64,000 nt of DNA, taken from the NCBI RefSeq assembly GCF_026151205.1, contig NC_087077.1, positions 11,065,983-11,129,982 on the forward strand. Reading direction: 5' to 3'. The notes below the pieces were generated by a model, which ran no database searches, had not been told where the DNA came from, and worked only from the letters and a program-made list of their open reading frames with translations. The position numbers and the translations under genes are program-made. This document shows, piece by piece, positions 15,932 to 52,394 of the stretch. This stretch comes from Bolinopsis microptera. Taxonomy: Eukaryota; Ctenophora; Tentaculata; Lobata; Bolinopsidae. Position 1 is the first letter of the stretch. Every line of letters begins with the position of its first letter.

Positions 15932-18900
15932 CTATTTCAATGATAATTCATTTGCATCAAAGTTGTAACTGCACCATAGTTGTCTGTCATATTTAGATTG
16001 TAGTTCTAACAAAGCTTTCTTAAGATTATTCTTGAATATACTGATAGGAGTGGAGAAGTCTATTTCACTCGTTGACTTACGGCAGTGATTCCAAATACTG
16101 GTTGATTGGTAGATGAATAGTGAGGACGGAGTGGGTGGGATGAAGTAGTTGTCTCGTCTTGGTGACCTGTTGAATAAAGAGAACATTGAGACTGGTGATT
16201 GGAACTTATTAATTTTAAACATTTCCAGTAAACAGTGCAACTTATGAAGATTGTGGACAGTCAGGAAGTTATACTCGTTACAGATTGGTTTACTGTGTTC
16301 TAGTTCAAAGAAATCTTTGCCTAACATCTGCTTGATAACTTTACCGGTCTTATCCCTAGTGATAGGCCTTACTCTGGCACATGTTTTGAACTTATTGAAG
16401 TACGCATCATTATCACCAAAGAGAATTCTTATGCATTTCTTTTGTGTTTTAAATATGGCTTCTAGTTTATTATTTGATACACCTCCCCAAACAGATATTC
16501 CATAACATAGGTGTGATTCAAAAAGGGTGTGGTACAGGTCCTTATAGAGTGTTTTAGGTACACAGCGTCTGATTCCACATAGTCTACCAATCTCACATTT
16601 CAATTTACGATTTAACGCTCTCAAGTGAGCATCCCAGTTCAGTTTTTGGTCAATAATGACTCCAAGAAACTTAGTTTCCTCTACCTTTTTAATTATTATA
16701 TTATTCAGTGTCAGTTCTAATTCATTAGTGTTTGAATCTGGTTCATTTCTACAGTTCGGCTTAAAGTGGATATAACAACATTTCTTTGTGTTGATATGCA
16801 GCAAGTTACTCTTCATATATTGATGAACAAGTTTAAGAATTTTGTTAGCTTTGCAGTAAAGTGTTTTTATACATTTATCTACAACAAATATGTTGGTGTC
16901 ATCGGCAAAAAGTATAAACTTACCTAGGTCTGATACTCTATATATTTCATTGATGTAGATAATGAAAAGCAAGGGACCTAATACTGACCCCTGAGGCACA
17001 CCAAATATTACAGACAGTTTTTCGGATTCTTCTCCAAGTACTGAAACATATTGCTGCCTATTAGAGAGGTAACTGGCTATTAATTTATTTGCAGTCCCTC
17101 GAATTCCATAATCATTCAGTTTTTTAAGCAGTTTATCATGACAGATTGTATCAAAAGCTTTACTTAAATCAATGAAGATGCCTAGTACATGATTTTTATC
17201 TCTTAGTGATTTTTCAATGTAGTCGACAGAGAAGTTAAGTGCATGGCTTGTCGAATGATTTTTTCTGAAGCCATATTGATTTTCATATAATAATCCTTGC
17301 GACTGGAAGAAACTGTAAAGCCTGGAGAATATAATTTTCTCAAGTATTTTACCAAATATCGCTAAGGTTGAGATAGGCCTGTAATTTTCAAGAAGCTCAG
17401 CATTTTCTTTCTTATATATTGGACTTATTTTACCTACTTTTAGGTCGTCTGGAAAAACTCCCTGTTGCATACATTCGTTATACAATACCGATAGTAGTGG
17501 ACTAATTTTGCCTGATACTGCCTTTACTATATGTACTGGTATATCACTAGCCTTGCCATTCTTTAGTTCCGATATGATCTTAGCCACCTCTTCAGGTGAG
17601 CAGTCATGTAGATATATATTAGCTGTATTCGATTTAGGTAAGAGGTCACAGAAACTTGGAAGCTGATTAATTTGTATTTCTCCTAGTTCTGTGTAGGCTG
17701 CATTAAGGTTAGATGCTAGGGATACAAAATACTTATTGAATTCATTCGCTATAACTCTGCGATTAGTTATCTTTTCATTGTCTATGGTAAATATAGGTCT
17801 GATCTCACGTTTCTGTTTGCCACGAATTTTATTTATAAGTTCCCAGGTTTTCTTGGAGTTTCCCTGAGTTTCAAGAAACTTGTCAGAATAATATTCAGAT
17901 ACAGCCATTTTACGAACCTTTTTTAGAGCCTTTCTATATTCTTTGTAGTCATCATAATGGTTTCTTTTATTACAGCAGATAGAACACAGGCATGTGCCCC
18001 CTTTTGTGTCAGTTTCGCCTTGTTTACACTTAACTTTCCTGACTTTCGCCCAGTCATCATACAGTCCATGGCAGTGGTTTACTGAGGCTATAATCCCGCC
18101 AGTAATCCAGGGGTTGTTCTGGATAGTGCGCTTAGTGGTTTTGGGTACAGCTAGTTTGCAGGTTTCGTCAATGCTGTTTTTAAAGATATCATGAAAGTTG
18201 GTAAAATCTATAATTGGTTCATTATCTAGTTTATTACCCAAGACTTCAGCAAATTTATCAGTGTTTGACTTACAATAGTCATAATATTGAGTGTGCTTAT
18301 GAGTATTTTTGGTCTTGCTAATTTCCCAGTCAGATATATTAAATATAGGGAGGTGGTGAGATATGTGATCAGTTATGACTCCAGAGGCAGTAACAGAGTC
18401 TAGGTCATTTGTAATGATGTTGTCGATGCATGAGGCATTACATCCAGGCTTTTCATGAGTTGCTAATGATATCAATGGGAAGAAGCCTCTACTGAATAGG
18501 ACGTCTTCATACTGTGCAATAATGTTACTGTGTTTACCATGGAGATTAATGTTAAAATCACCTGCAATTTGTGTATGTTTTGGTGCTTTATCAAGGATTG
18601 ACGACAATTCTTGGAGAGCTTGCTCAGCATTGCCACTTGGAGGGCGGTATATTACTCCTATAGAAGTAGAATTTCCTATACTTCCTATGGTTACAAAGAG
18701 GGTTTCTAGATTTTCTGTTACTTGTGACAGGTTGTTATTTTTAACAGCATTAAAGGAGTTAAGGACATATAGAGCTACTCCTGAGCCTTTTACTTTCGAG
18801 TCAAAGGTATCTTGATAGAAGCTCTCATAGCCTGTGAGTTCGTACAAGTTTTTCAATTCAGGGCCAACATTTGTTTCAGCGAGACCAATTACAGAGAATT

Positions 18901-19102
18901 TGTTAGTAAATCTAGCTATTTCAATTGCCAGCGAGTCAAAGTTTGATTTGTTGCCATCAAGATTTTGAAATATTAGTGAGTTTTGCACTTGTAATTCGTG
19001 AGCAAAGGTGTGGTTTATGCCTTTTACAGAATATGAGTCACAGCTTTCAAGTACCTCAGAGATTCTTAGTGACCTCAGCTTTGAAAAGACTAGTAGACAC
19101 AA
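15932..19102 (-). CDS. LINE-A non-LTR retrotransposon, endonuclease-reverse transcriptase
   Basis: An uninterrupted frame of 1,056 codons encodes the ORF2 protein of an APE-type LINE, probably in the CR1/L2/Jockey assemblage. The apurinic-like endonuclease spans about residues 40-255 (AETN near 76, GDFNI near 182, ITDHISHHLP near 245). A Cys cluster (CLCSICC) follows near 372. The reverse transcriptase covers about 500-800: PISTL, QYGFRK, FIDLSKAFD, GVPQGSVLGP (701) and catalytic FADDT (about 733). The first 25-30 codons overlap the end of LINE-B in another frame and probably do not belong to this protein, so the true start is uncertain and the 5' end looks truncated. The absence of stops over 3.1 kb suggests recent insertion. 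Confidence 0.85.
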   Translation of the reverse strand: MCLLVFSKLRSLRISEVLESCDSYSVKGINHTFAHELQVQNSLIFQNLDGNKSNFDSLAIEIARFTNKFSVIGLAETNVGPELKNLYELTGYESFYQDTFDSKVKGSGVALYVLNSFNAVKNNNLSQVTENLETLFVTIGSIGNSTSIGVIYRPPSGNAEQALQELSSILDKAPKHTQIAGDFNINLHGKHSNIIAQYEDVLFSRGFFPLISLATHEKPGCNASCIDNIITNDLDSVTASGVITDHISHHLPIFNISDWEISKTKNTHKHTQYYDYCKSNTDKFAEVLGNKLDNEPIIDFTNFHDIFKNSIDETCKLAVPKTTKRTIQNNPWITGGIIASVNHCHGLYDDWAKVRKVKCKQGETDTKGGTCLCSICCNKRNHYDDYKEYRKALKKVRKMAVSEYYSDKFLETQGNSKKTWELINKIRGKQKREIRPIFTIDNEKITNRRVIANEFNKYFVSLASNLNAAYTELGEIQINQLPSFCDLLPKSNTANIYLHDCSPEEVAKIISELKNGKASDIPVHIVKAVSGKISPLLSVLYNECMQQGVFPDDLKVGKISPIYKKENAELLENYRPISTLAIFGKILEKIIFSRLYSFFQSQGLLYENQYGFRKNHSTSHALNFSVDYIEKSLRDKNHVLGIFIDLSKAFDTICHDKLLKKLNDYGIRGTANKLIASYLSNRQQYVSVLGEESEKLSVIFGVPQGSVLGPLLFIIYINEIYRVSDLGKFILFADDTNIFVVDKCIKTLYCKANKILKLVHQYMKSNLLHINTKKCCYIHFKPNCRNEPDSNTNELELTLNNIIIKKVEETKFLGVIIDQKLNWDAHLRALNRKLKCEIGRLCGIRRCVPKTLYKDLYHTLFESHLCYGISVWGGVSNNKLEAIFKTQKKCIRILFGDNDAYFNKFKTCARVRPITRDKTGKVIKQMLGKDFFELEHSKPICNEYNFLTVHNLHKLHCLLEMFKINKFQSPVSMFSLFNRSPRRDNYFIPPTPSSLFIYQSTSIWNHCRKSTSEIDFSTPISIFKNNLKKALLELQSKYDRQLWCSYNFDANELSLK

Positions 19103-22100
19103 TCTGTCTTACCTGTAAAGGGAGTCCATTCCACAGTATATGGGTTCTGTAGAAAAATGATTTTGCCAGTGGGCTATTTGAGGTACATGTGGTGTGTGAA
19201 TTCTGACTTAACTTAGGTAAAATTGATGACACAATAGACAGACTGTCGAGGTGGCAACGCCTTAGTCGAGAAGTGCCCTGATATAGAGAGAGATAGTGAG
19301 GCAGCGATACAGGAATTAAATTGTTAAGAACTTTGTGGAAAAAAATAAGATCATTCAAGTCAAACTTTTGAGACAAAGGGAGAATGTCGACAAGCTTGCA
19401 CTTTTTGACATATTGCTCAGGTGGATAACTGCGGCCCTCTTCAGACAGAATCCATTTAATAGCTCTCTTTTGGAGACTTTCTAATTTATCACTAAGTGAT
19501 TTATTACAAGGGCGCCAGATTATGGAACAATTCTCGAATTGGCTACGAACCAGGGAGAGGTAAAGCGCCCGGCGACGTTTCTGATCAATGACAATATGGC
19601 CATCTCTTCTGACCATACCAAGTTGTTGGCAGGCCTTAGTATAAATTCTGTCGCACTGACTATTCCAACTTAACTTAGGAGTAACATCGACTCCAAGATC
19701 TTTTTCTAACTCTACATACACAAGAGGAGAGCCATCAAGATTATATGCGAATGGAGGAGATAAAGATGGTTTTCCTGAAACAATAAGCACTTTACATTTT
19801 GCTGGATGGAATCGCATTTTGTTTCTTAGTGCCCAGTCAGAGAGATAGTCTATATCCATTTGTAAATTAGTATTATCAGAAGATGAATGTATTTTACGCC
19901 AGATTTTTGTATCATCGGCATACAAAACAATATCAGTATTATCCGAAAGGCCAAGAGGAATATCATTGATAAACAATACAAAAAGTAAGGGACCAAGAAT
20001 AGAGCCCTGGGGGACACCAGAATTAACTGAGAGGGTAGATGACATCTCATTACCAATAACCACTCTTTGGTAACGGCCTTGAAGGTAATTGGTAAGAAAT
20101 TTGAGAAGTGTACCATCAATGTTATATAAGGTCTTTAGCTTATGAAGAAGGATATCATGATTTACAGAATCAAATGCCTTAGCAAAATCAAAATACACAA
20201 CATGATTGATAATGTTTTCGTTAAGAGACAATGCCAGGCTATCACAAAAGTCAACCATATTGGTTGTGCATGACTTGTGCTCTAGAAAACCATGCTGCCT
20301 GGGATCAAGAAGGGTACTTGTCAAAGAAAGCAGTTTACGTTTAACAATGCGCTCAAAAACTTTCATGACTAAACAAGTAAGGGATATTGGTCTATAGTTT
20401 TCAACCTCACTTTTCTTACCTTTCTTAAATATTGGGACAACATTTGCAAGTTTCCATTCTTGTGGAATGTAGCCGCTGTTGTAAGATCCACGAAAAATAC
20501 ATGTTAGAGGGTAAGCTAAACCTACGGAACAATTTTTGAGAATTTTACCGTGTATGCCATCTGGTCCCTGGGCTTTATTTGAATTAATATTTGAAAGAAG
20601 CTTACGAACATCCCGATGATCGAAGTCAATATCAAAATCAACATCATTGACATAGGATATGTCAGTGTCATAAAGTGAAGGATCCGAAAACTGGTTATAA
20701 AAGAAAGAATTGAAAAGTTCAGCTTGAGCTTTGGGTTTGAACCGAAGCTGTCCAGAATAACTAACACAATTAGGAATACGGCAAGAGTTAGATTTATACT
20801 TAACATGTGACCAAAACTTCTTAGTTATAAGCGCTGGATCATCACTATTGAAAAGATTGTCTCTTATTTTGGCTGATGAAAGCCTCTTAAAATCTTTACG
20901 GCTAGTAACAAACTTTAACTCATCAGAAATAGAACCAGAAATTTTAAATTTAGCTCTGAGTCTATCTTTTTTACGGCATGAAGAAAAAAGTTCACTATCG
21001 AACCACGGGGGTTGAAACTCTGATTTAATAGTTACTTTAGGAATATGTATATCAACTAAATCCATAATGCAGTCTTTAACTAACTTCCAAGACGAATCAG
21101 GATCTAGGCATTCTAGGACTTGCCAATTAATCGAGCATAATTCACGATTAATCATGTCCCAGTTTGCTTTCTTATAATTATAGATTTTACGTTTAGGAGT
21201 TTTCTTGCGGGAAAAGGAGCTTTTAATTGAAAAAGTGACAGGAAAATGATCAGATTTGCACACGGAATGAGGATCACAGACATTCAAGTTATCGATTGTG
21301 TTATCATAATTACTGAGAAGAATGTCTAATGTATTACCACTTTTATGGGTGGGTGATGTGATCAACTGGGAGAGAGAAAGATCACTGAAAGAATCTATGA
21401 AGGATTGCTCAATAGGTACGGTACTGGATGAAGATAGTCAGTCTGTATGGGGGAGATTAAAATCACCAATAACATAGATTTTAGGGGGATTCTTTTTGGA
21501 AACTAGCTTGCGAATATAACTAACTATGACATCATGATTAGGTAACCCAAGAGTTCCTACTCTATAACAAGTACAGATTACAATACTCTCTTTGTTAGGA
21601 AAAGCAATTTTAACGGCAAGCATTTCTGCACCTAGGCTAACTGGTAGTCGGGTTGTAGTGGCATCGAGATCAGACCGAACAGCCAAAAGAACACCACCTC
21701 CATTTTCCCTAAACTTTTTAGGGTTATTAGGATCTTGAGGATGAGTCTTTCTCGTGCGGTCATTGCGGAAGATTTCATATTGAGAAGAAGGAAAGATTTC
21801 GTTGCTAGAAATAGATTTTTTGAGCCAAGTCTCATTTAGGGCAATTATGTCAGGCTGCTCTATGTTAGCAAAGGATTGAAGTTCGGAAATCTTATTACCA
21901 TCAAGAAGGGGATGGGAGGAGCTTAGGTTACTGAAAGGAATAAGACCTTGGACATTTTGGTAGAGTACAGATAGGGAGTTGGGACCTGGATTAAGCATAG
22001 AAGGATTAACAAGAGTTATCAAAAGAAAGTTAAGAGAGAAAACCCAAAGAATGAATAAAGATACTAGACGCCTGAGGCGGCTGGAATACTTGACTCTATT

Positions 22101-22538
22101 CATCTTACCAGGGAGAAGAACATTTCTTATAAACCATGAGGAGATAATTACAAAGAAAAGTTTGATGTGGGAGCAAGCAAGAAATGGTATAAGATAACGT
22201 GGGCTGTCAAGGAGTAGAGAGGAATGAATATTAGAATCTAGGGGGAATACGGTGTTCATGGACCTAGTCGTGGAGAGAAGAATTGGGAGAAGGTAAGTCA
22301 TGATGAGAGAATAGAAGAGAAACATATGATTATGATAATTGTAGTTGATGTGTGGGGTGCATGGAGAATTAAATGTGTAAATTTTGTTAGGTATGAACGT
22401 GTTGATATGTATATGTGCATTTCTTGACTGTGTACGAGGCCTTTTGCATGCAAAAAGACCTATTCTAAGTCTAAACGATTCATTGTCTAACATATGGGAA
22501 AATGGGCAGTGACCGAATGTACCTGAAATAGGAGGCAT
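19056..22538 (-). pseudogene. LINE-B non-LTR retrotransposon, one premature stop
   Basis: One element is split into two frames by a single in-frame TGA at 21435-21437. The upstream part (22538-21438, 366 codons) holds a hydrophobic N-terminal region, a degenerate 2A-like motif and an APE endonuclease (LYQNVQGL, ALNETWL, GDFNLPHTD). The downstream part (usable from about 21434, ending at 19056) continues the endonuclease without a frame shift and then the reverse transcriptase: QHGFLEHKSCTTN, YFDFAKAFDSV, GVPQGSILGPLLF and catalytic LYADDT, ending in the usual FFYRTHILWNGLP tail. The stop falls right after the endonuclease GDFN motif. The family resembles CR1-type LINEs. It is otherwise intact, so the lesion is recent. 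Confidence 0.85.
21975..22010 (-). other. Degenerate 2A-like motif in LINE-B
   Basis: The protein reads NPSMLNPGP just after a hydrophobic stretch (LFILWVFSLNFLLITL). Ribosome-skipping 2A peptides end in DxExNPGP, and several CR1-like LINEs of marine invertebrates carry one near the ORF2 start. Here NPGP is kept, but the acidic residues before it are missing, so activity is doubtful. Confidence 0.45.
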
Positions 22539-22902
22539 AAAATTGAGAAAAAGATTAAATCAGAGATTTGTTTGAGTTTTAATAGCCATGTGTATACGCA
22601 TGCTGCAATCGCGCGCTACTGCAAGCGTGAAGCGAGAGGGCTCTGGTTAGAGCAATAAAGTGATTAATCATCATCCCTCCTCCTGTGTCCTATAATCAAA
22701 CAAAAAGTTAATAATAATAAACTCAAATTTCACTGTTTGAATTTTTTATACAATCATCTTACAATAAAGTATATGTTCCAACTTTCAAATATTAGACCGT
22801 CGACGAGTCCAACTTGAAACTTATATTTTTGGGTTTTAATAAGTTATAAACCCATAACAAACGAATGTTTGTGTAATTATCCGCATGTATGTTCACCTAA
22901 CC

Positions 22903-25515: not shown

Positions 25516-28500
25516 ATGTCCGTTACAAAATCTATCTACATCCTCTCATTACTTCTGGCAACTCCTTGTTTAAGGTATGTTCACATGAACGTACTGTATG
25601 CTTTTTGCTTGAATTTTAGGAGATGGAATTTGATTAAAGAATCTATGTAATTGGGTGACTTACTATTAAGTACATAGATTCATTCATTACATGATGTCTT
25701 TATTTAGGTGCTGTCTCTTAAGACCCTTCCATTAACCTTGTGTTCAGCAAAATGTTTTAATTACCAAGTTTTGCAATAAAAAACATACTTTAATCATGCC
25801 TGTTTTTAAGTTATTCATAGTGTACACATACCATTGACTTGATCAAATTCTTCAAAATGTGTTTACTTGCAGATTCTCTGTGAAAGAAGAACAACAAGGC
25901 GGGGCTTACGTTGGTCAGCTTACTAACCTTGACAAACAAGGAACTTACTGCTTCACATCTTCATGTGGCTGGTCTTCATTATTTGCTTTGGATAAACAGA
26001 ATGGGATAGTGACCACAACAGCATCTATAGACAGGGAATCGTTATCATCTTCTGTAATTACATTGACTTTGTCGGGAACTGACAGTCAAGGTAGTAATGT
26101 CCTGGAGGTCATTGATGTGACAGTTGAAGATATAAATGACAATAGTCCCACATTTTCTGCCCCAGACTATACCTTGATTGTATCTGAAAATTTGGGTCCA
26201 CAAGTGTTTGATCTGTTATCCTGGAGTGATGACGATGAAGGTGAAAATGGTAAACTGAAGAAAGCACAGATCTTGGATATATCAGATCAAAGCTGGCCCT
26301 TTATACCTGAGATTAAAACTAGTGGAACGTTTCAGCAAGTTGTGTTAAAGATAACCAAATCGCTCGATAGGGAAAAGGTTGATCATTACGAATTCACTGT
26401 AGAGATAGAAGATAATGGGTATCCTGCTCTAACTGGAACTTTAAACGTTATTATTGATGTTCAGGACATCAATGATAATGCACCATCCTTCGAGAAAGAT
26501 AAATATCAATTTGATCTGGATGAAAATGTCTCAATTCCTTTTATGATTCATCAATTTATTGCAACTGATGAAGACTCTGGGGACAATGGTGATGTTAAAT
26601 ACTCATTATCGCACAATTACAATCAAGCTTATTTTAGTATTGATGAGCAATCTGGACAGCTCTCTTTGACATCAAAAATTGACTATGAAACCAGTCCAAG
26701 AATACGACAAGACGTCAAAGGCTTTACTCTGACTGTGACTGCTCAAGACATGGGTGTGTCTTCTAGACATGCTTCAACTTCAGTTGAGATTGTTGTTCGT
26801 GATGTCAATGACAACAGCCCAATAATAAAGTTTTACAGTCCTTTCATGACAAATTCTGGCAGTGATACCGTTGAAATTCGAGAGAATATTGCAGTTAATT
26901 CTTATACTGCAACAATTATTGTAAGTGACAAAGATAGTGGTGTCAACGGTGACTTTGATGTGGTTATAGATGGTGGCGGTTTTGGGAGCTTCAAACTTCA
27001 AACATCTCCTGGTTTGCTCATGCTTACAGCTGACCATTTAGACAGAGAAGAAAGACATACATATGAGGTTGTCATCAAAGCAACAGATAGAGGAACACCA
27101 AGTCTGCAAACTACGAAAAATCTGAATGTGAATATTTTGGATGAGAATGATAATAGTCCCAGTTTCACAAAGCCACTTTACACTAAAAGCATTGCAGAAG
27201 ATGTTGTGATAGACACTGACATTCTCTCTGTGAAGGCGTTAGATCCGGACAATGGTGTCAATGGTTCGGTTTTATACAGGATTGAATCCCAGACAGGTGG
27301 TAACCTTTTCAAGATATCATCGAGTGGTAGCATCTCCAATTTGAAGAAGCTTGATGCCGAAATAAATAAGTTTCATGTATTAAACGTGTCAGCATCAGAT
27401 GGAGGAAATCCATCGTTGATCAGTTTTACAGTTGTAAACATCACAGTCACGGATGTAAATGATAATACACCAGTTTTTGATAGTTCTCTGTATACATGTA
27501 ATGTTCCAGAGACAAAAACAAAAGGCTTGGTAATCTGCTCTGTTTCAGCTAGTGATCTTGATGGTGGAGTTAATGGTGATATCGTATTTACCATTGTCCA
27601 GACTGATAGTCCAAACTTTTCTATCGATGGTTCAACGGGGGATATTACACTTATAACTGCCCTTGATTATGAACAAACAGAAGTGCATCAATTGACCGTC
27701 AAGGCATCCGATAAAGGTAGGCCGGCAAAATATACGACTTGTGAAGTGATCATCAATGTGCTAGATGTAAATGATGAGACTCCACAGTTTGATCCAGTTA
27801 TTTATTCAGCCACAATCCCTGAAGGTGTTATGTTCTCGAGCATTCTGCAGCTCTATGCTCATGACAACGATAAAGACGATAGCATCAAATTCTCTCTCAC
27901 TTCTGGTGATATAAGCTATTTTACAATTTCCCCCTCTGGTGTTATATCAAACACAGAAGTGCTGAAATATTCAGACTCAAGCAGTACATATAATTTCAAA
28001 GTTTCAGCTCACGATACTGCAGATAATGAAGCATCTCCTTCTGCTTCTATCAGTGTCAATGTTGTTGAAAAGTCTCCTGATTTACCTGTTTTTTCAAAAG
28101 GTGTGATCAAGACATCAGTTGCAGAGGATTCTCCAGTAGGACATTCTGTGACCACTATCAATGCTTCTACAGAATCAAGCTGCACTATTTCGTACAGCCT
28201 CGCTTCGCAATCTGATTATTTTTCTTTGGAATCTGCTACCGGCAAACTTATGATCAAGAAAGAGATTGACTATGAGATGATCAAGAGAATCAGCTTATCT
28301 GTGATTGCTACCTGCAGGTCAGTTGAAGGCCGTGCGACTATTGAAGTGGATATCTTAGATGTCAATGATAACTCACCTGTTTGCGATAGCATGGGCACGA
28401 CTTTTGTCAAAGAAGACACTCAGGTTGGAACAGTGGTTTATACTAGTGTTTGCCGTGATATAGATTCTGATGTGAATGGGAAACTTTCATACAGCATAAC

Positions 28501-31500
28501 ATCACAGACTCCTCTCTTCTCGATATCTATAAACAAAGGAGAAGTGTCGGTTGCTAGTCCATTAGACAGGGAAACAGTAGACTCTGTAACATTAACTATC
28601 AAAGTTTGTGACAACGGGGTCACTTTGAAATTATGCAGTGACTTTAGTATAACAGTTCAAGTCACAGATGCGAATGATAATGCACCAGAATTTCTTGATC
28701 CCCTCACATTTTACGTGAAAGAAGATGTCAAAGTTAACCATGCCATTGGAAAATTGAAAGCACTTGATAGAGACGAGGGCAAGAACAAACAACTTACCTT
28801 TACTGTCCTTAACTCCGTTCAGCAGATCAAAGTCTTTAGCTCTGGTGAAATTGTTGTAAACCAGTATCTTGACTTTGAAACAGTTGACAGATTCTTCTTG
28901 AATGTGAGAGTCGAAGACCAAGGTGTACCTTCTCAGAGTTCTGAATCTATTGTAAAGATCATTGTTCAAGATGCCAATGACAATGCCCCAATATTTGAGC
29001 AACAAAGTTACAACTTCAACGTTCAGGAACATCAGTCAGTGCCATTCGTTCTAGGTGCTGTTGTGGCTACTGACAAAGACTCGGATGAAAATGGAAAAGT
29101 ATTTTACTCACTTTTAGATGGTAACGATGTTTTCAGTATCAATTCCACGTCTGGTGAACTTACTTTGATTGGTACAGTCGACTATGAGAGTTCAGTCATT
29201 TCATATCAAATCAATGTAGAGGCTTCTGACTCCGGAGAAATCCCCCTAAAATCCAAGGTTCTTGTCGTTGTCAATGTGCTTGATATCAATGATAATGCAC
29301 CAACGTTTACCCAAGATAGCTATTCAGTTTCTATTGCTGAGGATATTGCCATAAATTCTAAAATATTTGAAGTGACAGCATCCGATAGAGACGGTCCCAA
29401 TAACAACCAGATCACATACTCATTTGAGCAAGTGCAAGACAAGTTTAGAATCGATTCTTCTAGTGGGAGCATTTTCACAACAAAACAGCTTGATTTTGAG
29501 CAGATTCAAAGTTACAATATTGTTGTGATGGCTGAAGATAATGGCTCCCCAGCGTTCTCCTCAAAAGCAAGTTTGGTGATTGTACTATCTGATGTCAATG
29601 ATAATGATCCGAAATTTGAAACAGATCTCTTGGAAATAGGTGTAGTAGAATCAACTAGTCCTGGCACCATTATCAAAAGGATCCAGGCTACAGATATTGA
29701 TTCAGGAAACAACGGTAAACTTACATACGCCATAGTTTCAGAATCAGATACAGGAATTTTCTCATTGGATAGTTCTTCTGGTGATTTGACACTGCTAGGG
29801 AAACTTACTTTTTCTGGGAATGTTTTCAAGCTAGAAGTAGAAGCTACAGATCACGGAAGTGTACAACGATCTTCATCACAAGACATTGAAATCACAGTGA
29901 TAGATGTTAATGACAATGCACCAGTCTTCACTGATGGAATATCCTCTGCAAATATTGTTGAAAACTCGCCCAAGGGAACTTATGCTTTTCAAGTTTCAGC
30001 AAGAGACCAAGATTCTGGACCAGCTGGTATAGTCAATTTTAATATTTCATCCCAGTTTTTTAGCATCGAACGGATGACTGGAAAAGTTACTGTTATATCC
30101 AATATTGACAGAGAAAGTAACGAAACTCTGCTAGTAACTGTGTGTGCTACTGACCAAGCATCACCGGTATCTGAGCAACTATCAGTGTGTAAAGACATTG
30201 TTATCAGAGTTCTTGATGTCAACGACAATGCCCCTATCTTCAAAGATCATGAATCTAATATTTTTGTACACGAGAACACAAAGGTTGGTGGAAAGATAGC
30301 AACCATAAAAACATCAGATGCTGATTACGGATCTAATGCTACTGTCTCCTACTCGATTGTTAACGAAACCCCTCGAGGAATAGTTTCTATTGATGCAGAT
30401 TCCGGGGAACTTGTCCTCTCTAAATCAGTAGACTACGAAGAAGATGAGAACGCTGGCTCATTCACCATAGAAATCAAAGATCTGGGCACTCCCTCTTTGA
30501 AAAGTTCCAAGCAATTTTTCCTCCTTGTGCTAGATGACAACGACAATGTACCTGTATTCACCAATCCTTCAGCTCAAAGATCTGTATACTTGTCATCTTT
30601 CGTGAAAGCAGGAAATGTCATCTACAAAGCCACAGCAACAGATGCAGATAGCGGGTTGAACGGTAAGATATATTACTCATTGCCCAACACTTTCAATGGA
30701 AAGTATAGCATCGACGAGAATACTGGAGACATAACATTGAATGTAAAAGTGGATAAATCATTCGAAAATACTCTACTGAAGGTGAAAGCTACTGATTCTG
30801 GCGTTCCTGAACTCGCCTCAATCATGGTTGTCAATGTGGAATACAAGGATAAGAATGTCAAACCAATTTGTCCTGGTAAGTCCTATGTAACAGTTCCAGA
30901 AGATCAAATGAGTTTCACTACCTTGTTCATTATCGAATGCTATGACTTGGATTGGGGAGAACGGGGACTGTTGACGTATTCCATTCTGAATGGAAACCGA
31001 GGGAATGTCTTCTCTGTATCTACTGATGGAAAAGTTAGCTTGACTCAGAATAGGCTTGATTATGAGCAGCTTAACTTGTACAGCCTTGTCATTCTTGTTG
31101 AAGATCTCGGAGAGCCATCACTGAAAGAGCTGTTTATACTCGATATTAAAGTGACAAATGTCAATGATGAAGCACCCGTGTTCACCACAGAAGAAATTGT
31201 GTTGACTGTCAGTGAAGGAGTTGCAGTGGGAACTTTGTTGAATACTGTCACTGCATCAGATGCAGATGGGGACACAATTACATACTCCAGCTCGACTGTC
31301 ACTGAGGATTGCAAAGGGCTCTTCAATCTTAACTCACAAACTGGACAGCTAACTCTAGCGAAAGAGATTGATATAGTTTTGATGAACTCAATCGACTTGT
31401 GTGAAATATCCGTAAGTGCCAGTGACGGAGTGTTTACTACGGAGACTTTGATGTCTATTTTGATTACAGATGTTGACAATAATGCACCTATATTCTACTC

Positions 31501-33505
31501 TTCCCCAGCATTCACAGTAAACTTAGCCTCCTCAAATGTTGTCGGAGCAGTTGGAGCTAGTGATTCAGATTCTGGAGATTCAGATTTGGTCTACATAATC
31601 TCAACGACCAAAAGATCGGCAGGAGTTGTAGTCGATCCAAACACTGGTGTTCTCTCATGCCCTGACTCTGCCTGCACGGATGGTGATGTTCAAATCAAAG
31701 CCGCTGGACGAACACTGTCAACATCAAAGGTGGTTTCAATAACATTAGATTCGTCCTCTGTTCAAAAAATATTTTCTTACTCACAGTATAGCTTCTCGGT
31801 AAAAGAATCGGCAGCTGTTGGTTTCATAATTGACAGGATCAGTGTTCAAAAGGTGCCTGATAAAATGACCATAGAAGGTGGAAATAAAGGACTCTCATTC
31901 AGAGTTGAGAACAACAATTTAATTGTCAGCAAAGAACTTGACTTTGAAGTGTGGACTACATTCGATCTCACTCTCTGTGCTGTTTTAGACTCAGTTTCAA
32001 CATTTTCAACGGTGGTAATATCAGTTGAAGATGTAAATGATAACATACCAACATTCCGTCCTTCTTCTTTGAGAAAGGAGGTAAAGAGCAATGTTTTAAT
32101 TGGCACAGAAGTTTTTGAAGCGAGAGCTACAGACGCTGATTCTGGACTATCTGGTCAGCTTCTCTATTACTTAGAGGACTCGGTCTTTAGTGAGTACTTC
32201 AGTATTGAAACTCAAACGGGCATTATTAGCGTCAAGAAAAGTTTGAGTGAAGCTCCATTGGATATGGATATTCAAGTTAAAGCAAAAGATCAAGGCTCCC
32301 CTGCTAGAACATCCAACAGTTTCAATCTACTTATCAAGATTGTACACAAGCCTCTTCCTCCTCAGTTCAGTAAACCATCATATGATTTTGCTGCTTATGC
32401 TGATGCTTCTGCTTACTCTCTCCTTGGTCAAATTGATGTCGTCAACAACATACATGATGATTTTCACTATGCTTTCGAGGAAGATAATCAGTATTTTACC
32501 ATTTATTCCGTATCAGGAAGTATCCTTCAAAAGACTCCGATCTCGAATAATCAATTGACAGAGATTCAAGAATCTGTAAAAGTTGTGTCCATGGCAGATC
32601 CAACTGTGTTTGGTACTGTGAAGGTGAACATAAGAATCATTCAATCGATCTGCACTCCCAATCCATGTAAAAATGGAGCAGCTTGTATAGATTCTGTTGA
32701 TAGATACGAATGTGAATGTGTAGATGGAACTGCTGGTAAAAACTGTGAATGTGTTGACGAAAAATGCACAAACAGTGGCTTTTGTTTTTACAATTCTACA
32801 ATGAGTGAAGCTATGTGTCTTTGTGAAGACGGAATGTATAGGGACAATTGTAAGAAATCGAACTCAGTCCTCTTGATTGCTGTAATCGGTGGAGCTGTAT
32901 TTGTTATTCTTGTGATTATCTTATCTGTTGTTATCTACTGTTGCTGCGTCAGGAAGTACAGGAAGGGTAAGGACAAAAAAGCGGCAAACTCAGATTTCGA
33001 ACATGCAGTGAATGGTACCAGACTTGGCAGTAACAAAAGATTAAAGGGACAGCTTCATTTGCAGGATAACATCTGCATGAATCCGATCAACATTTCAAAC
33101 TTAGATGTTGATTCAAAGATCGGGTATCCAGAGTATACCTACACCAACCATGATTACGATCTGGACTCACCCCTTCCTCTTCAGTCTCCTTCTGTTGAGT
33201 TCCCACCTCATTCTTTCCAGTATGCTGCATCAGACAGCGGCCGTTCATCCGTGTGCACTGAGGCTGTCATCTTCAGAAAGTTGAAACAAGTTGATGAGCC
33301 CAATTCAGTGGAATCTAATAGAAGAGACAAAGACTCTGGCTTGGCCGGGTCCCTCAATACTTTGTGTCACTTTGATATGGACTACCAGTTCAATGAAGAC
33401 TATTTGCATGACTGGGGTCCCAAGGTTCAGAACATAGTTAATTTTTTAGATTTGGATGATGCTGTTCTCGACGAGGACAGTCCAGTAAAAGAGGAATTTG
33501 TATAA
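25516..33505 (+). CDS. Large single-pass cadherin, Dachsous/protocadherin-like
   Basis: Predicted cell-surface adhesion protein of 2,563 aa. Exon 1 (25516-25574) encodes a signal peptide (MSVTKSIYILSLLLATPC); exon 2 (25873-33505) encodes everything else. About 21-22 cadherin repeats follow, most ending in the calcium-binding linker DxNDNxP. Linkers near the 7th, 16th, 19th and last repeats are degenerate (for example EKSPDLP and HKPLPP), so those joints should be more flexible. Two EGF-like domains (about residues 2280-2350; CTPNPCKNGAAC) precede a membrane helix (about 2352-2377) and a cytoplasmic tail of about 185 residues. Near its end the tail has DYLHDWGPK, resembling the core of the catenin-binding region in classical and Dachsous cadherins (DYLxxWGxR), and SDSGRSS further upstream. 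No laminin-G domain is seen. A uORF (ATGAAAATGTAG, 25492) precedes the start. Confidence 0.88.
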
Positions 33506-34325: not shown

Positions 34326-35849
34326 ATGGGGAAGCTTCAAAAGAAAGGGGAACGTGGGTCTGCCACAAATTACATCACCAGAACACAGGCAGTAAAAAAA
34401 CTCCAGCTCACACTGCCCGACTTCCGTAAGATATGTATCCTCAAAGGTATTTACCCTCACGAGCCTAAAAAGAAAAGAAAGCTGGCAAAAGGAAGCAGTG
34501 CACCCAAGACATTCTACTACGCTAAAGACATCCAGTACTTAGCTCACGAACCTCTGCTACAAAAGTTTGCTGAGACTAAGATCTTTGTGAAGAAGGTAAA
34601 GAAAGCCTTGGGTCGAGAGGAGCTTGATACTGTCCAGCGAGTAAGGGACGCAAAACCCCAGTACACATTAGATCATGTTGTCAAGGAACGGTATCCCAAC
34701 TTTGCTGATGCTATCAAAGATCTGGACGACTCTTTGTGCCTGATCTTTCTTTTCAGTACCATGCCTCGCCAAGGAAAGGTGCAACCTGGAATCATCAACA
34801 AATGCAGAATCCTGGCGGTACAGTTCATGCATTATTGTATTGCTGCGAAATGTGTGAAAAAAGTGTTTGTATCCATCAAGGGAATATATGTTCAAGTTGA
34901 AATTGACGGTAATGACATCAGCTGGATCATTCCTCATCAGTTTACCACACCTCCCCCTTCCAACATCGACTTCAGGGTCATGTTGTCTTTCCTTGAATTA
35001 TATACCACAGTCCTGGGCTTCGTTAATTTCAAGCTGTATTCTAGCTTGAACTTAATTTACCCTCCCAAAGCTTTAGATGATGTATTCAGCGAGAAAAGCT
35101 CCATTTATTATGGTGACGATATTTACCGTGAGCGGTTAGAGTCACTGAATATTCAGTTGGCAGAAGTACCACAGTTGGAAGAAGATGAAGAGATTGATGA
35201 AGAATTGCTGGCTGGAGACCAAACGTTAGAAGATCTCGTTCAATCTCGAAAAGAAGAGGAAAAATTCAAAAATCTATTCAAGGAGTGCAAGTTTTTCCTG
35301 GGTAGAGAAGTGCCTCGGGAAATCTTAGTTCTAACAATCAAATCGCTTGGAGGAGAGGTTTCATGGTCATCAGATAGCGGTGTTGCAAGCACATTTGACG
35401 AGACAGATCCAGACATCACCCATCAAATAGTTGACAGACCCTCTCAGTCCCATCAGTTCCTCTCCCGGTGCTATGTGCAACCTCAGTGGATATTCGACAG
35501 TATAAACCAGAAGAAACTTCTCCCAGTAGACGAGTACGTGGCGGGATGTCTCCTCCCACCTCATTTATCACCCTTCGTCAACTCTGAGGGATACCAGCCT
35601 CCTGAGCAGGTAGAACTGCTGGATCGTAACAAGGTGGCAGAGGATGAAGCAGAACAGGAGCCTAAAGATGGAATGACTCCTGAAGATAAGAGGCTGGCAG
35701 TCATGGCCATGCCCAAGAAGAGGAAAATTCTGTACAACAAAATGGTTTACAGTAATAAGAAGAAAGCTAGTGCTGTTAACAAGTTAAAAAGAAAGCGTGA
35801 GGAGTTGGATGAAACCAGGGAAAATAAGAAAGCTGCTCCAGAATCATAG
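34326..35849 (+). CDS. PES1: Pescadillo homologue, ribosome biogenesis
   Basis: A 507-aa nucleolar protein. In known species Pescadillo forms the PeBoW complex with BOP1 and WDR12, needed to process the 32S pre-rRNA and mature the 60S subunit. The N-terminal Pescadillo domain (about 5-280) is highly conserved: MGKLQKKGERGSA, then DFRKICILKGIYPHEPK. An acidic stretch (about 278-295, EEDEEIDEE) leads to one BRCT domain (about 316-410; CKFFLGREVPREIL and QPQWIFDSIN, with the conserved Trp). The tail is Lys/Arg-rich (KKRK, KLKRKRE), as expected of a nucleolar protein. At 507 aa it is shorter than human PES1 (588 aa), mostly in the C-terminal low-complexity part. The coding region has no intron, unlike its neighbours, but an acceptor-like site sits 5 bases before the ATG and the frame is fully intact, so I read it as the functional gene. 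Confidence 0.95.
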   Translation: MGKLQKKGERGSATNYITRTQAVKKLQLTLPDFRKICILKGIYPHEPKKKRKLAKGSSAPKTFYYAKDIQYLAHEPLLQKFAETKIFVKKVKKALGREELDTVQRVRDAKPQYTLDHVVKERYPNFADAIKDLDDSLCLIFLFSTMPRQGKVQPGIINKCRILAVQFMHYCIAAKCVKKVFVSIKGIYVQVEIDGNDISWIIPHQFTTPPPSNIDFRVMLSFLELYTTVLGFVNFKLYSSLNLIYPPKALDDVFSEKSSIYYGDDIYRERLESLNIQLAEVPQLEEDEEIDEELLAGDQTLEDLVQSRKEEEKFKNLFKECKFFLGREVPREILVLTIKSLGGEVSWSSDSGVASTFDETDPDITHQIVDRPSQSHQFLSRCYVQPQWIFDSINQKKLLPVDEYVAGCLLPPHLSPFVNSEGYQPPEQVELLDRNKVAEDEAEQEPKDGMTPEDKRLAVMAMPKKRKILYNKMVYSNKKKASAVNKLKRKREELDETRENKKAAPES

Positions 35850-39300: not shown

Positions 39301-42300
39301 TATTCGAACAACCAATCAAACCATCTTAAATGTGCTCTATTTCTAAGCTAAAGTTCTTAGCCAGATTCCGTCACGACTTATGACGGATATATTATATAGT
39401 GTCATTATATACATATGTCAAGATGGTTGTCGATTTATCATTTAGCCAGCCCATTGTTATGATATTGAATAGTTTTAAACCTGACGTTCCACTCAATGAC
39501 CATTTTGACACAAACCAGGTGTTTTCACGCTTCTAGACTTTAGTAGGGACTAGTGAACACTCTGAATAGTTTATAAAATTAATAGGCATGTTCCACCTTT
39601 ACCTTTATCTTTTTGCAGCTGCCTAATTTTTCGACGAGCTGGAATATTTTTATTTTTCAAGCTTGTTCTCTACTTCAAGTTATTATTTAAATTTACTGTT
39701 ATTATATGACCGGGCCCTCTGGTAGTGATTTAAACTCTCCACGTACTCTAGATGATAGTAACAAAGCTTTTTATCCTGTTTCTCCTCCCCTACTCTTTAC
39801 ACAGCCTCCCTCACCTCAACAACAGTACTGTGATGACACATCTTCAACACGAGGAGTCTCATGTCCTCCACACCATCATTGCTAACATCACCAACATAAC
39901 ACCAGTATCCAACACTTATCACCTTCCTCATGCCTGGAGATATTTCGTGATAACATGGTCCGTGTTTGTTGCTTTACTTTCCCTGTCAGGCAACTCCCTG
40001 GTCATGGTTTCTTCTGTCGGCTACAACGCTATAAAAGTAGACAAGATCTCAGTAGTGTTGATCAGAAACATTGCAGTTGCTGATTTGGGAAGCACCGTAT
40101 TGGTGATTATTCCAACTATCGGCAGTCTAGTGGCAGACCGTTGGATCTTCGGAACAGGAATGTGTTACCTCACATCTTACATGGTTTGGGTTTTCTCTAT
40201 CTCCAACAACCTGTTGATTGCCGGTCTGAACTGTAGCAAGTTGTTCTGTCTGATGTTTCCTTTTAGAGCTAGGTTAAGGACTCAAACGACTGGATGTAAA
40301 ATCGCCATTGCTCTCTGGGCGATAACAATCTCAAACTTGATATTCAACGCTGCTTTGCAACGTCCCTGTGCTTTTGAAACGTTCATTGACCGTTGTAACA
40401 TTCAAAGTTACACTCCATTTTGGGCTCGAGTCGACTTAGCCGCCTCCATAATATTCGCAGTTATCCCCCTGATGATAATCCTAATCTCAACCTTTAGTCT
40501 CTTCTTAATCGTCAGATCTCGGGGCAGACTCCAATCTAACAACATTGTACTCATACTTTCTGTCTCCATTGTTTACTTAGTATCTCTGGGACCCTTTATA
40601 GTTTACCAAAGTCAGACTCAACTCGAGGAGGGGTTCTATGCGTTCTCAGTGTATGTTTACTATGTCAGTACGATATCTAACCCTTTCTTGTACTACTGGT
40701 CCAGTGCAAGTTTCAACGAGTTTGTGAGGGAGATGGTTGGTAGAGTGAAGGTGTATTTTAGTGGGTTTTGTAGAGGTACTAGTACTATTAGTGGTGGGGT
40801 TGGTGATCATTCAGTGGGTGGTATGAGGAAGACAATTACTGAACGTTTAGCAATGTCAAGTGTGGTTATTGGTGACAACACTTGAGAGACTCTTCAGAAT
40901 TAAGAATATGTGTTAATTTCCCGACATTGTGTTAATTGCATTTTTTGTTTTTTTAGAACTGAATTTCAATTAGTGTTCTAAATTGCAAAAATTGTCATCA
41001 ATACAGGAATAACTTTTATCATTCAAAGTCATCCCTCAAACCAACACTAAAATTGCCTCTCAACTCTTACAAACCCGCTCAGGTCTCCTCCGCTCTCTCT
41101 CACATAGAACAACGTGGTATTGCGGTCACCACCAAACAAGTCCAACAATTCATCCAGATGCACTACATAGACTCTCTAGCTACTCAACTGTCCACTAAAC
41201 CGTCCCGTGTCCACTTTAACCCTAAACCTACCACTCTGGGAGAGGAGGCTCACTCTGAGACTCCTGATAACAGAAGGTAAGAGTTGGTGAGAGGTTGTAT
41301 CAGCTAGGGGACAGGGGTGATGTTTTAACCGTACTTTTTTAGTGGAGTTTCTTTGGCTGTTCTGAATCAAAAATCGAAATAATGGTACCACATTCTATAT
41401 GTTTCCCGTTTTATCTCCAAATGTAATGTGAGTCCCGGTAAGAATTATAATTAAACTGTAACGAAAATTCCTTGAACTACAATTAGAAATTAGAATTATC
41501 AGTTCGCCAAATATTCGATTTTAAAACATGACGACACTTTTTAAATGGTTTGACCTAGTCAAGGAGTTTAAAATCCTTATATTTCGTGAAGAAAAGTCTA
41601 GACCAAAATTCGTATTCTAAATTCCTGAGTTGACGAGATTATTAAATCAAAGTACCCTAAATCATAACATTACGGTCAGTTTAATACAGTTTACTGCAAT
41701 AACTTTGGTGCAACTTGTGCGTTATTATCTGCCAACGGAAATAAATCCTTGTTTTTTAACAGAAAAAAAATTTGCAGATTGTTGAAGGATATGGAAGATT
41801 TGAGGAAGAAGCTGGCGGAGGAGAAGAAAGAGAGGAATGATAAACATGTAGCTCACAGGAATGAGATGGCGATACTGCGAGCTGAGAACGAAGATTTAAA
41901 ACGACGGGTACGTCCTCTTCACTTGTTTTTAAGTAAACCTGTTCTGTGCAGATTTTTGATAAGTTGTAGTACTCGGTAGAGACGTAATGAAAATTGTGCA
42001 CTCTAAGACATTAAGAAGTTTCTAGATCATTGGAAATATTTTGGGATATATTGTTAGACACTTGACCCATCTTGGGACAATGATTAATTGTAGATGCAAA
42101 TATCTTCATTCAGAACATCTGTTACCTTGACATATATACCGTGCTGAATGTTTCTTACTTCTTCCAATGCATTCTCTTATAATTATATTTGGTAAAAATG
42201 AAACTCCGACTTGCTCAAAAACGTTATCCAAATATAATATGCCTTCTCCAGAGCTACGTATTTATTTAATATATTATATTGGTTCGGCTTCCCGATCTTA

Positions 42301-49363: not shown

Positions 49364-50185
49364 ATGAATCATACAGCCAGGGTTACCATAGCAACGACGG
49401 TGGCTGTAACTGGGGCGGGAGTATTACTGTATGCGTTATATCAGAAGTTTCGGAGCAAGGAGGGAGATGTTGATGAGACTGATTCTGGACCTTTTGTACC
49501 GAATATCACCAAATATGGTAAACCTGCTGCGGTACAGGAGTTAAAGAAGCCAGGGTATTTCATCATGTACAACAATCAAACAAAGACGCCGGTTTATGTG
49601 GTGGAGAAGTTGACGCCTGAGACCTTTACTGAAGGAATTCATGTCGAACGGGATCACATGGGGTTCCACATTGAAGATGCGATCTGGAGTGATGCTATCC
49701 GATCTACTAACGCTGATTATGCCGGGTCGGGGTATGATCGTGGTCACATGGCAGCTGCTGCAAACCACACCAGTTGTCAGGACGCTACTATGGATACCTT
49801 TACTCTGAGCAACGCTGTGCCTCAGTTCCCGGCCTGTAACCGAGGCAACTGGAAGATTTTAGAGAATTACGCCCGGGCACTTGTTAAAGCCAGTGTTGGA
49901 GTCTACGTTTACTCGGGTCCCCTGTTTATACCGCAAGAGACAGGCCAGTCACATGATAGATATGTGATATATCAAGTGATCGGCCAGCATACTGTAGCCG
50001 TCCCCACTCACTTCTTTAAGATTATCATCGTGGAGAGATTCAAGGTAAAGGCCACAGTGGAATGTTTTCTGGTGGAGAATGCCCCAAATTTGAAGAGTTT
50101 GACTCTGCAGGATATGGGTGTGGAGTTGTCAGATATTGAGAGGTGGTCTGGTTTGGTATTTGATAAACTGCACAAACTTGTCTGA
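49364..50185 (+). CDS. ENDOG: Endonuclease G, catalytically complete copy
   Basis: A 273-aa DNA/RNA non-specific nuclease of the beta-beta-alpha-metal family. In animals it resides in the mitochondrial intermembrane space and can cut DNA after release. The N-terminal hydrophobic segment (residues about 7-26, VTIATTVAVTGAGVLLYALY) would act as targeting/membrane anchor. The active-site motif DRGH is present (Asp125-His128, then MAAAANH). The metal-binding Asn159 and Glu167 occur in NRGNWKILE, 31 and 39 residues after the His, the same spacing as in human EndoG. LSNAVPQ, YVYSGPLFIP, VPTHFFK and DIERWSGLVF are family landmarks. The gene has no intron. A near-identical but altered copy follows 1.4 kb downstream on the same strand. 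AATAAA at 50368 may be its poly(A) signal. Confidence 0.93.
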   Translation: MNHTARVTIATTVAVTGAGVLLYALYQKFRSKEGDVDETDSGPFVPNITKYGKPAAVQELKKPGYFIMYNNQTKTPVYVVEKLTPETFTEGIHVERDHMGFHIEDAIWSDAIRSTNADYAGSGYDRGHMAAAANHTSCQDATMDTFTLSNAVPQFPACNRGNWKILENYARALVKASVGVYVYSGPLFIPQETGQSHDRYVIYQVIGQHTVAVPTHFFKIIIVERFKVKATVECFLVENAPNLKSLTLQDMGVELSDIERWSGLVFDKLHKLV

Positions 50186-50373: not shown

Positions 50374-51575
50374 AATGCATGATTGTTATCAATACATAGT
50401 TATGTGAGCTATTTAGAATATTATATTATTGCTTCAGTCTTAATTTCAGAAGTTTTATCAATTGTCAGTGCTATAGTGTATGATACGTGAATCGATTTAA
50501 AATGGAACATAATTTTGCATGCTATTCGGTGTAAGATTAACCGCACTGTGAGTGCTCCAGTTTATTATCTGCTTGAGAAAGTTGATGGTCTCTCTTGAGA
50601 CTTTTTGCCGATCGTAAATTGTGTAAAATCGTGTGAATTAAGACTATTTACCGTATGTTTATTTTGTTGAGACTTTTTAGCTATTGAATTGAGGTAAATG
50701 TGCACCAACCATTTTATTTACAGTATACAATTTTATTTATTGAGAATGAGAACAATTTGTTAATTGTTCATTGCAGTTAGAAATCGACCTAAAATTTGGC
50801 AAGTCCAAGGTTTGGGTTTGAGTTTTTCACTGGTTTGGTTCGAAGATGTAATCATATCTCCCTCGGACACATATCAAGAATCCTCCTCAAATAAACACGC
50901 TCTCCACGACTAACTGAAATTCATTAAAAAAAAGCTCTGGTTGGGCCATATCCAGAAAGACGACAGATAATCTGCTAGGAAATTTTGGAATTTAGAGGAA
51001 ATTTGATACCACAAAAGAAATTTGATACCACAAAAGAAATTTGTAATTGTGTAAGACCTTTTTTCCCCTTTTTTTTCGGGCATAAAAAAACATTGAACTG
51101 CAGGGAAATTTAAAGTTTTCTGTATGTGGGATGGTTCGTTCGACGAAGATTAATATAATTTTTCGAGAAAAACTCTCGGTTTGGTCCTTTTCTTATGTAA
51201 ACAAAAATAATGGCAATTCGTTTAGCATGTAGATTGTAGACGTGAGCTTTTTAACTTAGATCGTTTACATAAAAGTCTTCGCGAAATTCTTCATCTTTAA
51301 ATATTAATCCAGTTTTTTCTGTAATAAATGGCATAAAATTGAACTTTCTGTTTAACTGATCTCCGTGTTTTGATTTATTACCACCCCTTAATAACAGCCG
51401 CTCATGTCGGCATTCTAACGCGGCAATTGAAGCTGAGTCTGAAGGAGTTATGAACTTTTCAATGAATGCCTTGGGAATAAATCTTGTCAACAATGAACCT
51501 GGACAGTTGTTTACTTTAACTTTTTTGATCGCTGACAATTGGTATCCAATGAGACTCGCATCTACTTTTAACAAG
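50374..51575. other. Spacer between the two EndoG genes
   Basis: I see no gene. A short direct duplication (GAAATTTGATACCACAAAA, twice near 51000) is present. An in-frame ATG at 51450 exists upstream of copy 2, but the sequence between it and 51576 has no counterpart in copy 1. Confidence 0.5.
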
Positions 51576-52394
51576 ATGGACCCCACTGTTAAAGTCACTA
51601 TTGCCCTAACTGGCGCTGGGGCGTTGCTTTATGCCATATATCAGTGGTTCAGGAGTGAAGATTGTGACTCACCTTTTGTGGCGAATATCACTAAATACGA
51701 TAGTCACGTGGCCAACATCACCAAATATGGTAAACCAGCTGTCGTTCAAGAGCTTAGGAAGCCGGGGTATTTCATCATGTACAACAGTTCAACGAAAACG
51801 CCTGTTTACGTCGTGGAGAAGTTGACAACAGAGAGTTTTACTGACTGTTTTGTTGAACGAAAAGACAAGGAGTTTCAGAGTGAGGATGCTCTCCGGAGTG
51901 CTACAATGCGATCTACCAACGCTGACTACGCCGGATCAGGATACGATAGAGGTCGCATGGCAGCTGCTGCTAACCACACCAGATGTGAGGACGCCAGAAT
52001 GGAAACATTAACTCTGAGCAACGCTGTTCCTCAGTTTCCAAACTGTAACAAAGGGAACTGGACTATCCTGGAGAATTACGCCCGGGCCCTCGTTCAAACC
52101 AGCACTGGAGTCTACGTGTACTCGGGTCCTCTGTTCATACCCCAGGAGGTGGGTATATCACGTGACAGGTATGTGGTGTATCAGGTGATCGGGGAGAGCA
52201 CGGTGGGGGTTCCTACTCACTTCTTCAAGATTATTGTCATGGAGGGGTTCAAGGAGAAGGCTCTGGTGGAATGTTATTTAGTAGAGAATACTCCAAATGC
52301 TGAGAGTTTGACTCTGGAGGAGATGCGTGTGGAGTTGTCTGATATTGAGAGGTGGTCTGGTTTAGTTTTTCATAAATTACACAATCTTGCCTGA
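51576..52394 (+). CDS. Endonuclease G paralogue with altered active site (DRGR)
   Basis: A 272-aa full-length tandem paralogue of the gene at 49364. The start at ATG 51576 is chosen because MDPTVKVTIALTGAGALLYA aligns with the start of copy 1; an upstream in-frame ATG at 51450 would add 42 unsupported residues. The motif reads Asp-Arg-Gly-Arg: codon CGC at 51954-51956 (Arg127) stands where copy 1 has CAC (His128). That His is the general base of the family, so activity should be lost or very low. Everything else is kept, including AAAANH, the metal-ligand segment NKGNWTILENYAR, YSGPLFIPQE and VPTHFFK. Near residue 40 is a 12-residue internal duplication (VANITKYDSH, VANITKYGK). No stop or frameshift is present, which argues for selection on a non-catalytic role, or for very recent loss or a sequencing error. 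Confidence 0.88.
   Translation: MDPTVKVTIALTGAGALLYAIYQWFRSEDCDSPFVANITKYDSHVANITKYGKPAVVQELRKPGYFIMYNSSTKTPVYVVEKLTTESFTDCFVERKDKEFQSEDALRSATMRSTNADYAGSGYDRGRMAAAANHTRCEDARMETLTLSNAVPQFPNCNKGNWTILENYARALVQTSTGVYVYSGPLFIPQEVGISRDRYVVYQVIGESTVGVPTHFFKIIVMEGFKEKALVECYLVENTPNAESLTLEEMRVELSDIERWSGLVFHKLHNLA

Follow-up and report, generated by a model that had tools for sequence, protein, structure and literature searches.

EndoG is a nonspecific nuclease that the cell must keep in check, and the locus described here raises the question of what a copy of such an enzyme is for, if anything, once its catalytic histidine has gone and its reading frame has not: is it a duplicate on its way to becoming a pseudogene, an error at a single base, a nuclease by other means, or a protein retained to do something other than cut? 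The material examined is a 64,000-nt stretch of DNA (‘the window’) on contig C6 of a host assembly of 264.65 Mb in 232 contigs.

Two intact EndoG-like genes in tandem

Reading along the forward strand, the following features define the locus:

49364..50185, + strand: copy A, an EndoG-like frame, intact and intron-free; 273 aa, DRGH, His codon CAC at 49745-49747
51450..51575, + strand: upstream in-frame extension of copy B; 42 codons, beginning at another ATG at 51450 (the frame then being 314 aa)
51576..52394, + strand: copy B, an EndoG-like frame, intact and intron-free; 272 aa, DRGR, a predicted pseudonuclease
51600..51662, + strand: hydrophobic N-terminal helix of copy B, model residues 9-29; a similar helix is present in copy A (residues 6-31)
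51671..51732, + strand: local duplication in the N-terminal linker of copy B (VANITKY...VANITKYG), single in copy A

Each frame is uninterrupted between ATG and stop and contains no intron, in agreement with the original prediction of two intact, intronless EndoG genes lying in tandem; they share the + strand, are separated by 1.4 kb, and encode proteins identical at 191 of 269 aligned columns (71%). The Pfam family Endonuclease_NS (PF01223) covers the core of each, scoring 167 bits for copy A and 146.1 bits for copy B against a cut-off of 23 bits, and is the sole Pfam domain detected in either protein in a scan at E 0.001; for both, the top matches among solved structures bear the name ‘Endonuclease G, mitochondrial’. 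The ATG of copy B at 51576 sits in the context CAAGATG, the same as that of the copy A ATG, and the 42-codon extension above it is probably a leader sequence. In the predicted model the hydrophobic N-terminal helix of copy B is a possible membrane anchor.

The intron-free state of the two genes is unremarkable in itself, since long intron-free frames occur nearby too. Other features of the window are:

15932-22559, - strand: long open frames of 1058, 793 and 373 codons (stop to stop), which we take to resemble reverse transcriptases of non-LTR retrotransposons
26543-33505, + strand: a 2320-aa cadherin encoded by a single open frame, comprising 17 cadherin stretches plus an EGF domain
34326-35849, + strand: Pescadillo, in a single open frame
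39752-40885, + strand: a rhodopsin-type receptor, in a single open frame

A third, typical EndoG gene elsewhere in the genome

Two genome searches both return the same three places of the EndoG family; a count to be read as at least three, the search having been made exon by exon with masked stretches read as N. In addition to copies A and B there is:

G000 contig C4:11186907-11187578 (L004 1441-2424), - strand of C4: a third, typical EndoG gene; intron-free, 327 aa, DRGH, basic

The third copy scores 247 and 242 bits against worm and fly EndoG respectively, as compared with 131 and 141 bits for copy A, and joins the EndoG proteins of worm, fly and mouse in the protein tree (support 96/94). 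That position, together with the cadherin gene near copies A and B, marks the genome as that of an animal; a search of it for COX1 found nothing. With the typical EndoG sitting on another contig, copies A and B are seen to form a divergent side pair. Their common stem in the tree is long, at 1.72 changes per column, and their placement is uncertain (75/64); a single animal clade uniting them with EndoG is not rejected (p-AU 0.298).

Two other placements were considered for the pair and set aside. As to a bacterial origin, the top prokaryotic matches are chlamydial (at most 42% identity), yet as the animal-only clade is not rejected, horizontal transfer is not needed to account for A and B. The best prokaryotic relatives of the two proteins are mostly Chlamydiota (20 of 42 tree rows; L007-L011, L013-L017 and others), which might reflect an ancient connection of chlamydiae with eukaryotes through EndoG. 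Nor do the two proteins appear to be EXOG: the SRGH motif given as the EXOG signature (PMC6547421) is absent, copy A having DRGH and copy B DRGR, and neither carries a C-terminal Wing domain, both stopping at the end of the core. A match to Exog_C was not found in this genome, although the same search was equally silent in 14 control genomes.

Copy B has lost the general-base histidine

Alongside copies A and B, the protein alignment holds 40 other sequences, comprising the third copy from this genome and, from a profile search that recovered 40 prokaryotic or viral-contig loci, 39 of these; the remaining locus, L042, is a fragment and was left out. The positions of copy B that bear on catalysis are:

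51954..51956, + strand: codon 127, CGC (Arg), where the general-base His would stand; His in 40/40 other sequences and in copy A
52047..52049, + strand: Asn158, the metal-ligand position, kept; EXOG N171 lies at an equal offset from its His
52050..52052, + strand: Lys159; Arg in 36/40 others, and by offset equivalent to EndoG R181
52071..52073, + strand: Glu166, the invariant active-site-helix Glu, kept

The catalytic codon is CAC in both copy A and the third copy, and CGC in copy B. The loss of the general-base histidine from an intact gene is a real and clean observation, and the original prediction of a full-length downstream copy reading DRGR for DRGH holds.

Around this position the catalytic and metal-site residues checked are otherwise preserved. 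To judge from its sequence, copy A has DRGH together with all of the metal-site residues checked, and R113, R126, N150, N159, E167 and R171 (copy A numbering) are the same in copy B. Of these, R113, N150, E167 and R171 are positions that we take to be catalytic or metal-binding by comparison with Serratia nuclease. Asn159 and Arg126 match EXOG N171 and R138, which are reported as catalytic or metal-site residues of that enzyme (PMC5418593). At the neighbouring substituted position, EndoG R181 is described as forming a salt bridge with the Asp of DRGH (PMC6547421); the Lys of copy B at the equivalent R160 place (A numbering) could still make such a bridge.

The prediction that only the histidine had been lost can be upheld for the seven catalytic and metal-site positions checked, and not for the protein as a whole. 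In the alignment, 39 columns are conserved across 90% or more of the other 40 sequences. Four of them show departures in copy B only (H128R, F146L, R160K and A212G, in A numbering; sign test p 0.125), none in copy A only, and two in both; three further changes thus accompany the loss of the histidine. Scored against a profile of the 40 others, copy A reaches 224.1 bits, copy B 212.9 bits and the third copy, which is itself inside the profile, 289.2 bits. Copy B has five His in total, and the two with no counterpart in copy A, residues 44 and 266, are far from the site in sequence.

The EndoG core fold is kept in the predicted structure

Structure-model alignments comprised 32 rows, made up of 29 of the 40 loci and the genome's own three copies. 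The monomer models of copies A and B have mean pLDDT values of 80.7 and 78.3 respectively. Of solved structures, that of fly EndoG (3ism_A, CG8862) superposes on the copy B model with Z 27.5 and an rmsd of 2.3 over 231 residues, with worm CPS-6 (Z 27.3), mouse EndoG (25.8), EXOG (24.0) and the nuclease-like domain of autotaxin (20.9) also matching. In the model, then, copy B keeps the EndoG core fold, which together with the identity of the metal-ligand Asn and the conserved Glu to those of copy A bears out the earlier claim that these residues and the fold survive. The first active-site strand, assigned to residues 125-128 in copy A, is assigned over just two residues in copy B; model confidence at this point is middling.

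An old pair, with copy B probably constrained for most of its branch

Nei-Gojobori estimates between A and B are dS 1.11 and dN 0.18, a ratio of 0.16 over 268 codons, values which indicate that the pair is old. As gene conversion would make dS misleading, it was tested for and rejected: across 185 same-residue degenerate codons, permutation gives no significant clustering of identical synonymous codons (longest run, p 0.21; lowest window, p 0.42).

Our codon model takes three sequences (A, B and the third copy) over 263 codons, or 222 codons for the nuclease core. Synonymous sites are saturated in the third copy, which serves only to polarise protein changes; A and B are equally old since their duplication, and their neutral lengths were accordingly set equal. 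Under equal ages, omega is 0.106 for copy A and 0.202 for copy B (about 0.12-0.33 from a likelihood grid); A = B is not rejected (2dlnL 1.53), and omega B = 1 over the whole of the B branch is rejected (2dlnL 49.4). For the core, omega comes to 0.126 in copy A and 0.182 in copy B, and the test against omega B = 1 gives 2dlnL 41.0. Once equal ages are dropped, omega B = 1 can no longer be rejected (lnL -2614.29 vs -2613.52), such a fit being unable to part time from omega, and the selection result consequently leans on that setting. Taken copy by copy, and given equal ages, dN/dS for copy B (omega 0.20, with 1 rejected) is not the near-neutral value that would speak against the original prediction; we consider it a fair reading of these sequences that the protein encoded by copy B has spent most of its existence under constraint.

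Constraint over most of a branch leaves room for its loss towards the end. We therefore also fitted a ‘late-neutral’ model, in which the constraint on B equals that on A up to a last fraction f of its branch, which is neutral. The best f is ~0.05 (core 0.02), with an upper limit of ~0.24 from the grid, and lnL is -2615.60 at f 0.05 as against -2615.89 at f 0; a short, recent neutral phase therefore fits slightly better. When neutral drift was simulated on copy A (1000 runs, substitutions only), the frame stayed free of stops in 48%, 19%, 4.6% and 0.4% of runs at 0.02, 0.05, 0.1 and 0.2 changes/site respectively. Derived changes in B and A number 8:5 when polarised by the third copy (p 0.58) and 30:32 when polarised by the commoner residue of the other sequences (p 0.90), whilst the end branches of the protein trees are longer for B than for A (0.31 vs 0.06 in one tree, 0.29 vs 0.04 in another). 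The B-only changes, lower profile score and longer branch of copy B fit relaxed constraint. The loss of the histidine may, from these figures, be fairly recent, with neutral drift confined to about the last quarter of the B branch at most; on balance we favour the view that constraint outlasted the loss.

Hints as to compartment

Copies A and B have pI values of 6.4 and 5.6, as against 9.2 for the third copy. They carry four and five N-glycosylation sequons respectively (P 0.045 and P 0.027 against shuffles), where the third copy has four (P 0.375), and three Cys fall at matching places in the two proteins, out of totals of three in A and five in B. Sequon and Cys positions are common to the pair, as is an acidic composition that sets them apart from the third copy. 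These are weak hints, on which A and B may sit outside mitochondria.

Discussion

What, then, is copy B? An old pair, a low omega B and rejection of neutrality over the whole branch argue that it is probably a real pseudonuclease of EndoG fold, and we regard it as very probably catalytically dead. Our preferred explanation begins with tandem duplication of a divergent EndoG-like gene, from which copy B would have arisen; its histidine would then have been lost through one A-to-G change (CAC to CGC, if the copy A codon is ancestral), and purifying selection would have kept the product as a folded protein. Judging from published mutants, such a protein would be unable to cut and still able to dimerise and to bind nucleic acid, so that it might pair with, or compete against, the active-looking copy A and thereby lower or redirect the nuclease activity of the latter; competition for DNA or for an activator would, beside pairing, be the simplest use of such a product.

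The published mutants in question are the following. In human EndoG the histidine is the general base, and H141A, which leaves plasmid DNA almost uncut, elutes as a homodimer and binds ssDNA, dsDNA and ssRNA with micromolar Kd (PMC13151035). EXOG H140A is likewise inactive, a homodimer and able to bind nucleic acid (PMC6547421; PMC5418593), and EXOG shows half-site behaviour (PMC5418593). Worm CPS-6 is highly active as a dimer and less so as a monomer; its H148A mutant still binds the activator WAH-1, at 84.5 nM (PMC11496498). That histidine mutants are inactive and yet dimerise and bind nucleic acid makes a damping mechanism possible, and by analogy we find heterodimer damping of A by B plausible. 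The components of this proposal do not stand equally firm. We lean, by a narrow measure, towards copy B having kept a function after losing its histidine; that this function is the damping of A, via mixed dimers or competition, we put forward tentatively; and more doubtful again is the fullest version, in which copy B would be a selectively maintained, natural dominant-negative EndoG, a DNA-binding and non-cutting subunit whose mixed dimers set the nuclease dose at the locus.

The main competitor is that copy B is simply a recently inactivated duplicate, a nuclease for most of its history that lost its histidine lately and is now drifting towards a pseudogene. The late-neutral fit would allow for this, as would the four B-only changes at conserved columns set against none in A, the longer end branch, and the near-half of simulated frames that stay open at the lowest level of drift; the simple counts of derived changes show no clear excess in B, however, and the frame is intact with a core omega of 0.18, such that we see this as possible, though not the likelier account. 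A function for copy B without reference to A is a sub-case of our preferred explanation, its probability being included there: a kept pseudonuclease might, for example, bind nucleic acid or AIF, possibly outside mitochondria. The acidic character of both proteins, the hydrophobic N-terminal helix, the excess of sequons over shuffles and the three matching Cys would suit such a role, as would the retention of activator binding by CPS-6 H148A noted above; the sequon and pI signals are weak, however, and A, lying in tandem with B and 71% identical to it, is the natural partner, which leaves this sub-case rather unlikely in our estimation.

Two further readings dispute either the change or its consequence, and both seem to us improbable. 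Position 51955 might be a base error, an assembly error or an unfixed allele, the B copy of the species normally having His. A single transition is all that would be needed; against this, B alone differs at three more conserved columns, as expected if the active site were relaxed, and the 20.9 Mb length of the contig suggests a good assembly. Alternatively, copy B might still be a nuclease, with Arg or another residue serving as general base or with an unusual substrate, given that all other active-site residues checked are kept and that selection persists on average. Saying this, the histidine is invariant in the other 40 sequences, EndoG and EXOG histidine mutants are reported inactive, and the two additional His of copy B are distant from the site in sequence; of all the readings we give this the least credence.

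Comparison with known systems

If our preferred explanation of a maintained pseudonuclease is correct, copy B would be a natural twin of the residue loss that kills the enzyme in the laboratory, placed beside an intact copy, and so a test of whether inactive subunits regulate dimeric nucleases; if it is merely a recent casualty, it has met the ordinary fate of a duplicate. Known controls on EndoG include the fly inhibitor EndoGI and, for worm CPS-6, the activator WAH-1 and redox-dependent dimerisation (PMC11496498). A natural EndoG pseudoenzyme was not found among the matches listed in open-licence literature, which is weak evidence of novelty.

Animal EndoG, as represented by mouse EndoG, fly CG8862 and worm CPS-6, resembles copies A and B in the metal-site Asn, Glu and Arg, the DRG motif and the length of the core, and resembles copy B in fold (listed EndoG rows, Z 24.4-27.5); it differs in that B is without the general-base His, and in that A and B form a separate, long-stem pair of acidic pI. 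Also comparable are the engineered mutants hEndoG H141A, CPS-6 H148A, mouse H138A and EXOG H140A, which have lost the same residue and kept the rest of the site; these, however, are laboratory alanine mutants, whereas copy B occurs in nature with Arg at this place and has, on average, diverged under constraint. The nuclease-like domain of ENPP1-3 (ENPP2 being autotaxin; listed autotaxin rows, Z 20.4-20.9) offers a natural domain with this fold that probably lacks nuclease function, but it forms part of a larger ectoenzyme and is reported to conserve none of the essential nuclease residues; copy B, in contrast, stands alone beside an intact paralogue and has lost one catalytic residue. Finally, trypanosome prozyme, the dead DHS paralogue and c-FLIP are each reported as an inactive paralogue that acts on an active relative, as we propose for copy B; they belong to other enzyme families, and the regulation reported for them is what we infer for the pair described here.
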